Source: Anoxybacillus amylolyticus
GTDB lineage: Bacteria > Bacillota > Bacilli > Bacillales > Anoxybacillaceae
DNA length: 64,000 bases
Assembly: GCF_001634285.1 (NCBI RefSeq)
Contig: NZ_CP015438.1
Coordinates: 1,314,001-1,378,000 of the forward strand
Reading direction: 5' to 3'
The notes beneath the pieces were generated by a model that ran no database searches, was not told where the DNA came from, and was given only the letters and a program-made list of their open reading frames with translations. The translations under genes were made by a program, and so were the position numbers. Shown piece by piece: positions 42,004 through 46,493 of the stretch; the first letter of the stretch is position 1; the number at the start of each line of letters is the position of its first letter.

Positions 42004-42978
42004 ATGACAGAGCAAGTAATACTCGTTTCCATTGCAACAGCGTTTTTTATTACGGTCGTATTATCTCCACTTTTCATTCCGTTTCTGCGGAGGTTAAAAT
42101 TCGGTCAAAGCATCCGAGAAGAAGGACCGAAATCACATCAAAAAAAATCTGGCACGCCAACGATGGGCGGAATCATGATTTTATTGTCGATTGTCGTGAC
42201 GACATGGTTAATGACGAAAAAGTATTCGCATATAACAGTAGAAACGTATTTACTTTTATTCGTGACAATTGGATACGGACTGCTCGGTTTTCTTGACGAT
42301 TTTATTAAAGTAGTGATGAAGCGGAACCTTGGATTAACGAGCAAACAAAAACTAGTAGGACAATTAATCATCGCTGTTATTTTTTATTTTGTGTATCGTC
42401 AAGAGCATTTTTCAACGGTACTACATATTCCAGGGACGAACGTGTCGTTCGATTTAGGCATTGGCTATCTTCTGTTAATGCTTGTGATGCTTGTCGGCGG
42501 CTCTAATGCGGTCAATTTAACCGACGGGCTTGACGGTTTGTTATCAGGAACAGCAGCAATTGCGTTTGGAGCTTACGCTGTATTGGCATGGAATCAACAA
42601 CAGTATGATGTTGCGATTTTCAGCGTTGCCGTTGTTGGAGCAGTGCTTGGCTTCCTCGTTTTTAACGCTCATCCTGCGAAAGTGTTTATGGGGGATACAG
42701 GATCGCTAGCGTTAGGGGGAGCGATTGCAACAGTGGCCATGCTGACAAAGTTAGAATTATTGCTCGTCATTATTGGCGGGGTGTTTGTCATCGAAACGTT
42801 ATCGGTGATTATTCAAGTCATTTCATTTAAAACAACAGGAAAACGAGTGTTTCGCATGAGTCCGCTTCACCATCATTATGAACTAATCGGTTGGTCGGAA
42901 TGGCGAGTCGTCGTCACTTTTTGGGCGGTTGGCTTGCTGTTTGCGATACTCGGAATCTATATCGAGGTGTGGATGTAA
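42004..42978 (+). CDS. mraY: Phospho-MurNAc-pentapeptide transferase MraY
   Basis: MraY transfers the MurNAc-pentapeptide phosphate to undecaprenyl phosphate to make lipid I. The 324-residue protein has about ten hydrophobic segments. Motifs include PTMGGIMI, the Asp pair in [32 protein letters not shown] and the [12 protein letters not shown] stretch. Its stop codon touches the start of murD directly. Confidence 0.98.
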
Positions 42979-44334
42979 TTGAAACATGTAGCAACGTATC
43001 AAGGAAAACGTGTACTCGTCGTTGGGCTAGCAAAAAGTGGGTTGGCTGCGGCACAACTGCTTCACCAACTCGGAGCAATTGTGACTGTCAATGACCAAAA
43101 GCCGAAAGAAGAAAATGAAGCGGCACAAATGTTGGAGCAAAAAGGAATTTGTGTCGTCTGCGGTGGGCATCCGCTTGAGTTGCTGGATGAACCGTTCGAT
43201 TTGATTGTCAAAAATCCAGGCATTCCATACAAAAACCCACTCATCGCCAAAGCAATGGAAAAAGGGCTACCGATTATGACCGAAGTAGAACTTGCCTATG
43301 AAATTAGCGAAGCGCCATTTATCGGTATTACTGGTTCGAATGGCAAAACGACAACGACGACATTAATTTACGAAATGCTAAAAGAAGGAAATAAGAAGCC
43401 GCTCATTGCTGGGAACATCGGGACGGTTGCTTGTGAAGTGGCACAAACGGCTGCCGAAGACAATTGGATCGTCGCAGAGCTTTCTTCGTTCCAACTAATG
43501 GGCATTCAAACATTTCGGCCGCACATCGCGGTGTTATTAAACATATTCGATGCACATTTGGATTATCACGGAACGAAAGAAGCGTACGCACAAGCGAAAG
43601 GAAATTTGTTTAAAAATCAAACTGAAAGCGATTATGCAGTAGTGAACGCGGACGATGAATGGGTAAGAAAGCTAGCGGATTTATCCAAAGCGAAAAAAAT
43701 ATGGTTTTCCACTACAACGCCATTGTCGTCCGGCGCTTATGTTCGAGAGAACGCCCTTTATTGGAACGATGAAAAAATAATCAATCTATCCGATATTGCT
43801 TTGCCTGGAAAGCATAACGTGGAAAATATTTTAGCTGCGTTGTCAGCTGCCAAGCTAGTCGGTGTAGATAACGACGCAATCGTTCGTGTGTTGACGTCGT
43901 TTACGGGCGTTAAACATCGTTTGCAGTACGTCGGAACGGTGAATGGAAGAAAGTTTTTTAACGACTCAAAAGCAACGAATATATTAGCAACGCAAAAAGC
44001 GCTAGCGGCGTTTACTGACCAGCCAGTCATCCTTTTGGCTGGTGGATTAGATCGCGGCAACGAGTTTGATGCCCTTATTCCGTATTTGCGTCATGTAAAA
44101 GCAATCGTTTTATTTGGCCAAACGGCACCAAAATTAGAACGGGTTGCGAAAGAAGCAGGAATAGAAATGGTTTGTCATGTCGATAATGTGGAAAAAGCTG
44201 TGCCCGCTGCCTATGAACTATCTGCGCCTGGTGATGTCATTTTGTTATCGCCAGCTTGTGCAAGCTGGGATCAATACAAAACTTTTGAGCAGCGAGGGGA
44301 CATTTTTGTCCAAGCGGTGCATATGCTGAAATAG
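42979..44334 (+). CDS. murD: UDP-MurNAc-L-alanine:D-glutamate ligase MurD
   Basis: MurD adds D-glutamate to UDP-MurNAc-L-alanine with ATP. The 451-residue protein has the N-terminal UDP-binding Rossmann fold ([17 protein letters not shown]), the P-loop [13 protein letters not shown] (about 114-126), and the C-terminal ligase domain with [11 protein letters not shown] and [13 protein letters not shown]. It starts at TTG directly after the mraY stop, which suggests coupling; the GAGGTG inside the end of mraY serves as ribosome site. Confidence 0.97.
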
Positions 44335-44366: not shown

Positions 44367-45467
44367 TTGCCACAAAAAAAATCTGCGCCTGATGTATTGC
44401 TCCTTTTTCTTACGTTCTCGTTGCTTGCAATCGGGCTCATTATGGTATATAGCGCCAGTGCGGTGTGGGCGGAATACAAATTTCACGATCCGTTTTTCTT
44501 TGCGAAACGACAGCTATTGTTTGCTGGTGTTGGCGTTGTTGCGATGTTTTTCATTATGAATGTCGATTACTGGGTATGGCGGGATTGGGCGAAAACGTTT
44601 CTCATCATTTGTTTCATTCTTCTCGCTCTCGTGCTCATTCCAGGCGTCGGAATGGTGCGCAATGGGTCACGAAGCTGGATTGGTGTTGGGGCGTTTTCGA
44701 TTCAGCCATCGGAATTTATGAAGTTGGCGATGATCGCGTTTTTGGCTAAATATTTATCGGAACATCAAAAAGCGATAACATCGTTTAAACAAGGATTGCT
44801 TCCTTCGCTGGCGCTCGTGTTTTCCGCCTTTGGCATGATTATGTTGCAGCCTGATTTAGGAACGGGAACAGTGATGGTCGGTACGTGTATCGCTATGATT
44901 TTTGTCGCCGGTGCTCGCATTAGCCATTTTGTTGGGCTTGGCATGATTGGCGTAGCTGGGTTTGCGGCGCTCGTGTTATCTGCTCCGTATCGTATGAAAC
45001 GAATTACGTCGTTTTTAAATCCATGGGAAGACCCGCTTGGCAGCGGCTTTCAAATTATTCAATCGCTATATGCAATTGGTCCAGGTGGCTTGCTTGGATT
45101 AGGATTAGGGCAAAGCAGGCAAAAGTTTTTTTATTTGCCAGAGCCACAAACTGACTTTATTTTTGCCATTTTAGCAGAAGAGCTTGGATTTATTGGTGGT
45201 TCACTCGTCATCTTATTGTTCAGTCTACTTCTTTGGCGTGGGGTGCGTATCGCCTTTGGTGCGCCGGATCTATACGGCAGTTTTTTAGCGGTCGGCATTA
45301 TCGCGATGGTTGCCATTCAAGTAATGATTAATATTGGTGTCGTGACAGGGCTTATGCCAGTCACAGGCATTACGCTGCCGTTTTTAAGCTACGGAGGGTC
45401 GTCATTGACGCTCATGTTGATGGCAATCGGTGTGTTGTTAAACATTAGTAAGCATGCGCGTTACTAA
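44367..45467 (+). CDS. spoVE: SpoVE, sporulation SEDS-family glycan polymerase
   Basis: SpoVE is the FtsW-like SEDS protein for spore cortex synthesis, partner of SpoVD. It has 366 residues and about ten hydrophobic segments. Conserved stretches are LIMVYSASAVWA, FSIQPSEFMKLAMI and LPEPQTDFIFAILAEELG with the presumed catalytic Asp263. It lacks the long charged tail of FtsW at 1444. The position after murD identifies it as SpoVE. TTG start behind GAGGTGGTGGGC. In B. subtilis murG follows; here murB follows instead. Confidence 0.94.
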   Translation: MPQKKSAPDVLLLFLTFSLLAIGLIMVYSASAVWAEYKFHDPFFFAKRQLLFAGVGVVAMFFIMNVDYWVWRDWAKTFLIICFILLALVLIPGVGMVRNGSRSWIGVGAFSIQPSEFMKLAMIAFLAKYLSEHQKAITSFKQGLLPSLALVFSAFGMIMLQPDLGTGTVMVGTCIAMIFVAGARISHFVGLGMIGVAGFAALVLSAPYRMKRITSFLNPWEDPLGSGFQIIQSLYAIGPGGLLGLGLGQSRQKFFYLPEPQTDFIFAILAEELGFIGGSLVILLFSLLLWRGVRIAFGAPDLYGSFLAVGIIAMVAIQVMINIGVVTGLMPVTGITLPFLSYGGSSLTLMLMAIGVLLNISKHARY

Positions 45468-45518
45468 AGAGAAGGGGACGGTTCTTCCAAAGACCTGCCC
45501 CTCTCGTTTTGTTTGCGT
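45468..45518 (+). terminator. Possible terminator of spoVE
   Basis: GAGAAGGGG and CCCCTCTC pair across a loop of about 20 bases that contains a GG/CC pair, followed by GTTTTGTTT. The fold is moderate. Confidence 0.5.
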
Positions 45519-45581
45519 GTTAGTGACATGAAGGAAAAAAGCACATACGATGATAGAAACCCATAAGAAAGGAGAATGTTC

Positions 45582-46493
45582 GTGCAGACATTGATCAAAG
45601 AATTGGTGGAAGCGAACATAGGAAAAGTGAAAGAAAATGAGCCGCTTTCCCAACATACAACGATGAAAATTGGCGGACCTGCCGATGTATTGGTTGAACC
45701 GAACAGTATAGAAAGCTTACAAAAAGTGATGGACATTGTGCGCAAACATCAAGTTACGTGGCGTGCTATTGGACGTGGTTCGAATTTGCTCGTATCGGAC
45801 GAAGGCGTCGAAGGAGTAGTCATTAAAATCGGGGAAGGCTTGGATGAGTTAGTGATTGACGGGGAAGAAGTGACCGTTGGTGGAGGTTATCCTTTAATTA
45901 AACTAGCAACAGTCATTAGCAAACAAGGATTATCGGGGCTAGAGTTTGCAGGAGGAATCCCAGGATCGGTCGGTGGTGCTGTCTATATGAATGCTGGTGC
46001 GCATGGTTCGGACATGTCGCGGATTGTTAAAAAAGCGCAAATTTTATTTCCCGACGGAACGATTCAATGGCTAACAAATGAACAAATGGAATTTTCGTAT
46101 CGGACATCGGTGCTGCAAACGAAACGACCGGGGATTTGCATCGCCGCTGTATTGCAAATGAAAAAAGGAGAGCGTGATGCGATTGTGGCGGTGATGCAAA
46201 AAAATAAAGATTACCGACGCGATACGCAGCCTTGGAACTATCCATGTGCAGGAAGCATTTTCCGTAACCCGTTGCCAAACTACGCTGGCCAACTGATTGA
46301 AGCAGCCGGATTAAAAGGATATGCAATTGGCGGGGCAAAAATCTCTGAGCAACATGCGAACTTCATCGTTAATACAGGTAACGCCAAAGCAAGAGAGGTG
46401 TTAGACTTAATTTCCTATGTCAAGCAGACGATTTATCAAAAATATGGCATTCATTTAGAAACGGAAGTAGAAATCGTTGGTCGAAAGTCCTAA
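45582..46493 (+). CDS. murB: UDP-N-acetylenolpyruvoylglucosamine reductase MurB
   Basis: MurB reduces UDP-GlcNAc-enolpyruvate to UDP-MurNAc with NADPH and FAD. The 303-residue protein shows the FAD-binding region ([28 protein letters not shown]), [20 protein letters not shown], and the proton-donor Ser in [10 protein letters not shown] prefer GTG 45582, with AAGGAG seven bases upstream, over ATG 45576, which lies too close to that site. It follows spoVE after a gap of 114 bases. Confidence 0.96.

Follow-up and report, generated by a model that had tools for sequence, protein, structure and literature searches.

Where does Anoxybacillus amylolyticus keep its murG gene, and how did the usual place of this gene become vacant? 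This essential gene is a drug target, and the division and cell wall (dcw) cluster, in which it is normally found, is treated as among the more stable bacterial gene orders. We analysed a stretch of 64,000 nucleotides of this heat-loving species (contig NZ_CP015438.1, positions 1,314,001 to 1,378,000; hereafter the window). Its dcw genes follow each other in the order murE, mraY, murD, spoVE, murB, divIB, ftsA and ftsZ, without murG and with a gap of 114 bases between spoVE and murB (divIB is named from position alone; profile search gave it no family). In what follows, MurG1 is the in-operon (dcw) MurG of the TIGR01133 type, and MurG2 is the NF009102 (PRK12446) lineage. Our answer, in which we have high confidence, is that MurG2 first became established, that the ancestor of one branch of the host's family then lost the dcw MurG1, and that MurG2 is now the sole lipid II synthase.

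The initial annotation had reported that murG is missing between spoVE and murB, and that the gap of 114 bases holds a hairpin and no gene fragment. Both statements were confirmed. Eight MurG1 proteins used as tblastn queries gave no match in the gap at E values up to 1, and no mobile element was recognised in it. The open frame of murB begins at ATG 45576, and the GTG at 45582 is better spaced after AAAGGAG, which gives the gap its length of 114 bases. A profile search of the host genome, which is 99.98% complete and consists of three contigs, found one MurG above a curated cut-off. As had been expected of an essential gene, it is located elsewhere, on a contig of 65 kb (C3). The search of the genome and the comparison of tree and location with relatives, both suggested in the initial annotation, thus led to a single MurG2 outside the cluster, which groups with the MurG2 of other families. 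The features concerned are as follows.

45468..45581, no strand: vacated murG position, 114 bases up to the GTG of murB; no MurG1 remnant
C3:46473-47570, minus strand: murG of the MurG2 type, the sole MurG of the genome, found by profile search of the contigs
42004..42978, plus strand: mraY, which makes lipid I, the MurG substrate (TIGR00445, 409 bits)
42979..44334, plus strand: murD, upstream dcw neighbour (TIGR01087, 467 bits)
44367..45467, plus strand: spoVE, the final gene ahead of the vacated position (TIGR02615, 592 bits, above cut-off)
45469..45505, plus strand: terminator-like hairpin followed by a T-rich run (-17.9 kcal/mol, z -2.13)
45523..45551, plus strand: weak sigma-70-like promoter match ahead of murB (GTGACA-17-TACGAT), at chance level (1 found, 0.7 expected)
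45582..46493, plus strand: murB, UDP-N-acetylmuramate dehydrogenase (NF010480, 385 bits; also TIGR00179)

The C3 protein matches NF009102 with 565.5 bits (cut-off 339) from position 2 to position 352 of the 352 profile positions, and is narrowly above the TIGR01133 cut-off (256.6 versus 250.25). Its identity to the in-operon MurG of relatives is 26-33%. Among proteins of known structure, its sequence is most similar to the solved MurG structures 7d1i, 3s2u and 1f0k (E 1e-35 to 1e-31); on sequence only, a GT-B fold homologous to theirs is plausible. Residues were compared in an alignment of 100 MurG2 rows and only six MurG1 rows. Shared by both types are the GGGxxGH motif (its G and H), GGS, and the C-domain residues E, Q and N, which are present in 99-100 of the MurG2 rows and in all six MurG1 rows; among the MurG2 rows, H, E and Q occur in all 100 and N in 99. 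These three C-domain residues are characteristic of MurG enzymes. They are all present in the C3 protein, and so are the equivalents of T16 and H19 (E. coli numbering), which excerpts of a review give as MurG residues (PMC4790310). At the T16 place in the first motif, the C3 protein has T and 59 of the 100 MurG2 rows have S. Four signatures distinguish MurG2 (AGHV, KGGFVxVP, HESD and SRGDQ), with each residue found in 96-100 of the 100 MurG2 rows. The C3 protein conforms to them, and the six MurG1 rows carry GGHI, TGGYVxGP, HEQN and NHQ at the same places.

Within the host's family, 31 of the 41 genomes have MurG2 only and 10 have MurG1 only, and none has two matches (E 1e-30). The genera with MurG1 are g9 and g2; the latter includes, as judged from identical match coordinates, Anoxybacillus ayderensis, thermarum, flavithermus and pushchinoensis. 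The species trees were inferred by quick search, with SH-aLRT as the measure of support. In the tree of six dcw proteins, g2 and g9 group together (support 100) apart from all MurG2 genera (98), and the family itself is supported at 100. The tree of the MurG2 genes inside the family agrees in outline with that of the dcw proteins. The simplest reading is that one swap took place in the family, on a single branch, and has been inherited since.

The position of the MurG2 gene is likewise shared by the family. In all 31 MurG2 genomes it adjoins the genes for a polysaccharide deacetylase (PDA) and DedA, and in all four g2 and g9 genomes that were fetched PDA-DedA-UgtP and ddl-murF are present without MurG2. 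No MurG2 remnant was found in the PDA loci of g2 and g9, where the best match (E 8e-4) lands on the UgtP-like gene. An exact empty insertion site was not demonstrated in these two genera; the genes past MurG2 or PDA vary among genera. Four genomes of these MurG1-only genera (L379-L382) have a conserved insert of three genes, nearly 4 kb long, between the UgtP-like gene and ddl. This insert is absent from the 11 MurG2 loci fetched and from the host genome.

Beyond the family, we compared 80 named relatives, the best 80 of 571 MurB loci, i.e. those with a spoVE-murB stretch and a MurB most like that of the window. The gap is without murG in 20 of them, and in all 20 MurG2 is the sole match (E 1e-30). 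In the other 60 murG is in place; 20 of these also have MurG2 above the cut-off and 40 do not. The association between a gap without murG and MurG2 has a Fisher p of 8e-8 if relatedness is ignored. Neobacillus pocheonensis (L084), which has MurG1 in two pieces and is without MurG2, was counted as having murG in place. On the tree, the MurG1 state requires at the fewest six changes, at least five of which are on supported branches. Most simply, the six are losses: in the host's branch, in a group of Priestia aryabhattai/flexa and M. iocasae, in Sutcliffiella, in Rossellomorea, in Pseudoneobacillus and in the pair FJAT-27245/27445. One of the named relatives, L042, is titled Paenibacillus sp. 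BSR1-1 but groups inside Neobacillus, and is probably misnamed.

In a sample of 398 genomes from the whole class, MurG2 was above the cut-off in 156, and 35 had two or more matches (counted by eye), both among the matches listed. Five genomes with both types were checked (G057, G138, G232, G252 and G227), and in each of these MurG1 adjoins spoVE. Four of the 398 gave no match at 1e-30: G082 has MurG1 in two pieces, and in the drafts G083, G122 and G290 no MurG is convincing. Identical match coordinates show that 12 of the named genomes, those of the host's family (L011-L022), are also in the set of 41, and the class sample overlaps both other sets; the three genome counts are therefore not independent. 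G231 (family f27; L348) combines a dcw MurG1 with a further MurG-like protein that is 31% identical to MurG1 and was assigned to neither type. It is among the 35 genomes with two or more matches, yet none of its proteins is above the MurG2 cut-off.

Decay is visible in both directions, i.e. of MurG1 and of MurG2. Bacillus sp. FJAT-27445, whose genome has MurG2, contains a decayed MurG1 in a gap of 822 bases (L063:5370-5755). The pieces are in order, in different frames and with several stops (E 1e-23 for the main piece, 7e-5 for the C-terminal piece and only 0.12 for the N-terminal piece). Conversely, Metabacillus halosaccharovorans (G447; L383:2732-3094) has a broken MurG2 fragment alongside an intact MurG1 in place. 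A transposase-like frame of 466 codons lies inside the vacated murG gap of Parageobacillus thermantarcticus (L022:4216-6001), which was nevertheless counted as without murG in the gap.

How may the swap have proceeded? We infer that gain came before loss. MurG2 would have become established beside the deacetylase-DedA-UgtP-like-ddl-murF cluster. With both enzymes present, the resident MurG1 would have been redundant; it would have decayed in place and then have been deleted, so that the terminator-like hairpin of spoVE was left next to murB. From then on, MurG2 alone would have converted lipid I and UDP-GlcNAc to lipid II.

Several points weigh against this proposal. The Y of the GGY motif, present in all six MurG1 rows, is F in the C3 protein and in each of the 100 MurG2 rows. 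Excerpts of the review describe Y106 of E. coli MurG as invariant (PMC4790310), and on our own reading the Y of the GGY motif would match Y106. Lipid II synthesis by the MurG2 of the host is a prediction from its sequence. When relatedness is counted, the association comes down to five phylogenetically independent pairs with a median p of 0.125, and with only five pairs it is unable to reach p 0.05. Moreover, the change counts on the tree cannot separate loss from gain. Finally, a clade that unites the family's MurG2 with the MurG2 of Bacillaceae (p 0.297 with 39 rows, 0.056 with 48 rows) or with all rows of the same order (p 0.291, 48 rows) was not rejected by approximately unbiased (AU) tests.

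The AU tests bear on how MurG2 entered the family. Horizontal transfer is likely, and because these tests do not reject the joint clades we hold it as likely and not as settled. The MurG2 of the host is 65%, 61% and 61% identical to that of three genomes of other orders (G057, G138 and G252, respectively), and 50-58% identical to that of Priestia, Neobacillus, Sutcliffiella and G232 of the same order. In the same comparisons, SpoVE identity reaches 61-67% outside the order and 82-84% within it. The best trees place the MurG2 of the family among other orders; the tree of 106 rows included 17 of the 31 MurG2 genomes of the family, 25 outside loci from the class sample, 40 further loci, 18 of the 32 other named MurG2 and six MurG1. 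None of the 57 MurG2 loci outside the family has the family's MurG2 neighbour genes beside it (flanks up to 1.5 kb).

An alternative is that the ancestor of the Bacillales or Bacilli had both enzymes, and that differential vertical loss produced the present distribution with no horizontal transfer into the family. Both types are indeed widespread in the class sample, the joint clades are not rejected, and G138, a second genome of family f32, is equally similar to the host in MurG2 (61%) and SpoVE (62%). However, identity in MurG2 runs counter to kinship (60-65% to other orders versus 50-58% within the order), and the placement in the best trees and the neighbour genes also speak against such ancient coexistence. 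We regard it as possible but doubtful.

It is very unlikely that MurG2 makes something else and that lipid II is in fact synthesised by another protein. According to parts of a study on Streptomyces and Kitasatospora, MurG-like proteins of these genera form many groups (PMC8092295), and two UgtP-like proteins of the host genome weakly match the MurG model. These two score 30-50 bits against the MurG cut-off of 250, and they match diglucosyl diacylglycerol synthase best, yet below the cut-off of that family. Furthermore, 31 of the 41 genomes of the family have no other MurG match (E 1e-30). L298 comes from a genome with MurG2 alone, which we take to be Staphylococcus. Excerpts of two papers state that the MurG of S. 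aureus makes lipid II in vitro, and that it is the target of murgocil (PMC4790310, PMC5039524).

Simple relocation, in which the resident murG would have left the dcw cluster for C3 and changed at its new site, would also leave one MurG, located elsewhere. The initial annotation had left the choice between relocation and replacement, of which only replacement stands: the remaining MurG belongs to a distinct lineage with residues of its own, and is hence not a moved resident gene. MurG2 and MurG1 coexist in 20 of the 80 named genomes, and the C3 protein groups apart from MurG1 with a support of 100. Relocation is ruled out by lineage, coexistence and tree, unless the MurG2 clade is a long-branch artefact, and we consider it highly improbable. 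It is scarcely conceivable that the gap results from faulty assembly or from sequence that the window lacks, for although the genome is in three contigs, murG and murB are on different contigs in all seven genomes of the genus (the host's included) and relatives have similar sequence through the gap; the absence of murG is not a quirk of assembly. As refuting evidence, the initial annotation had named a murG at this place in another assembly of the strain; none such was identified, and the other six genomes of the genus are without murG here.

The preferred reading, replacement of MurG1 by MurG2, leaves the setting of the two loci to be described. On C3, MurG2 is divergent from (back to back with) the genes for PDA, DedA, the UgtP-like protein, ddl and murF. 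C3 begins in a tRNA cluster and ends inside a 16S rRNA gene. We considered C3 as a plasmid and rejected this, since its tRNA clusters, cut-off 16S rRNA gene and glmS ribozyme identify it as chromosomal; it also carries ddl, murF and an alanine racemase gene. A transposase of the IS982 family is encoded about 200 bases past the 3' end of murG2 in the host genome (G000:C3; L006:5440-6267). In G004, the UgtP-like gene adjoining murG2 is broken by two stops (G004:C25:31993-32955), and a stop-free copy is present elsewhere in that genome.

In the window, the hairpin after spoVE looks like a terminator that would end the upstream transcript. Of 200 shuffled sequences, seven folded as well. When the window was aligned with five relatives (six sequences in all), neither the 3' arm GCCCCTCTC nor the T-rich run that follows it varied. 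The hairpin is absent from the terminators listed by a consensus scan. Excerpts of a study on B. mycoides report that murG is co-transcribed with murB, ftsQ, ftsA and ftsZ, and not with ftsW/spoVE (PMC3762067), which fits a transcript boundary after spoVE. By coordinates, the spacing between spoVE and murB is 106-401 bases in the genomes of the genus. A motif of 13 bases, GGGGACGGTTCTT, is present a single time in the window and in six of 382 loci overall. Five of these six are this very gap, from three genomes of the genus (the host's own, and G002/L011 and G006/L012, which are each present twice).

The neighbouring murB shows variation of its own in the family. In the Geobacillus-like genus g3 (e.g. 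L356:6998-7227), presumably Geobacillus, the best MurB is just 35-36% identical to that of the window in all 14 genomes. In the four g3 loci that were read, spoVE is directly followed by divIB, so that the murB in this position is gone too. The genera g4, g5 and g7 hold both MurB types.

Both enzyme families are known, and so is the kind of event in which a distant homologue supplants an essential gene; the interest lies in an essential dcw gene having been displaced repeatedly. We found no description of repeated displacement of the dcw murG in the open-access literature searched, which misses most subscription journals. On a broader reading, for which we see an even chance, MurG2 moves between lineages of the Bacilli and repeatedly makes the dcw murG dispensable, with five or six swaps in one order and all stages still living, and the swap of murB in g3 suggests a wider pattern in which dcw genes yield to paralogues outside the cluster. 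If this is true, a core gene of the division cluster that seemed 'untouchable' has been swapped, and the stages would be MurG1 only, both enzymes, one of the two decaying, and MurG2 only. The data provide a replicated natural experiment, in which two synthases with the same product by annotation and 26-33% identity were swapped several times in one order, with genomes at each stage, and the effect of the swap on lipid II supply, division and inhibitor sensitivity becomes testable. As a caution, annotation by gene neighbourhood, or inhibitors built on the B. subtilis or E. coli type, may fail in species with MurG2.

Among known systems, the C3 protein is closest to the NF009102/PRK12446 type of MurG, with which it shares a full-length match, the same motifs and the status of sole MurG in the genome. 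We take this type to be the sole MurG of S. aureus, outside its dcw cluster, and presume that annotations of the B. cereus group list two types of MurG, including 'MurG2'. What differs in the host's family is the setting next to PDA and DedA, which recurs at none of the 57 outside loci. With the TIGR01133 type, the dcw MurG1 of e.g. B. subtilis, the C3 protein has in common the reaction, by family annotation, and the shared motifs. It differs from this type in its low identity (26-33%), in the change from Y to F in the GGY motif and from HEQN to HESD, and in its location outside the dcw cluster. Excerpts of the murgocil study report M45 and D168 as residues for murgocil action in S. aureus (PMC5039524). 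In alignment with L298, these are L and E in the C3 protein, which weakens murgocil sensitivity as a functional test in the host. MglA, according to parts of the study on Kitasatospora and Streptomyces, is a remote homologue of MurG, located away from the dcw cluster, that is able to replace MurG, with an identity of about 31% (PMC8092295). MurG2 resembles MglA, by description, as a MurG homologue outside the dcw cluster, but in the host the canonical murG is gone in nature.
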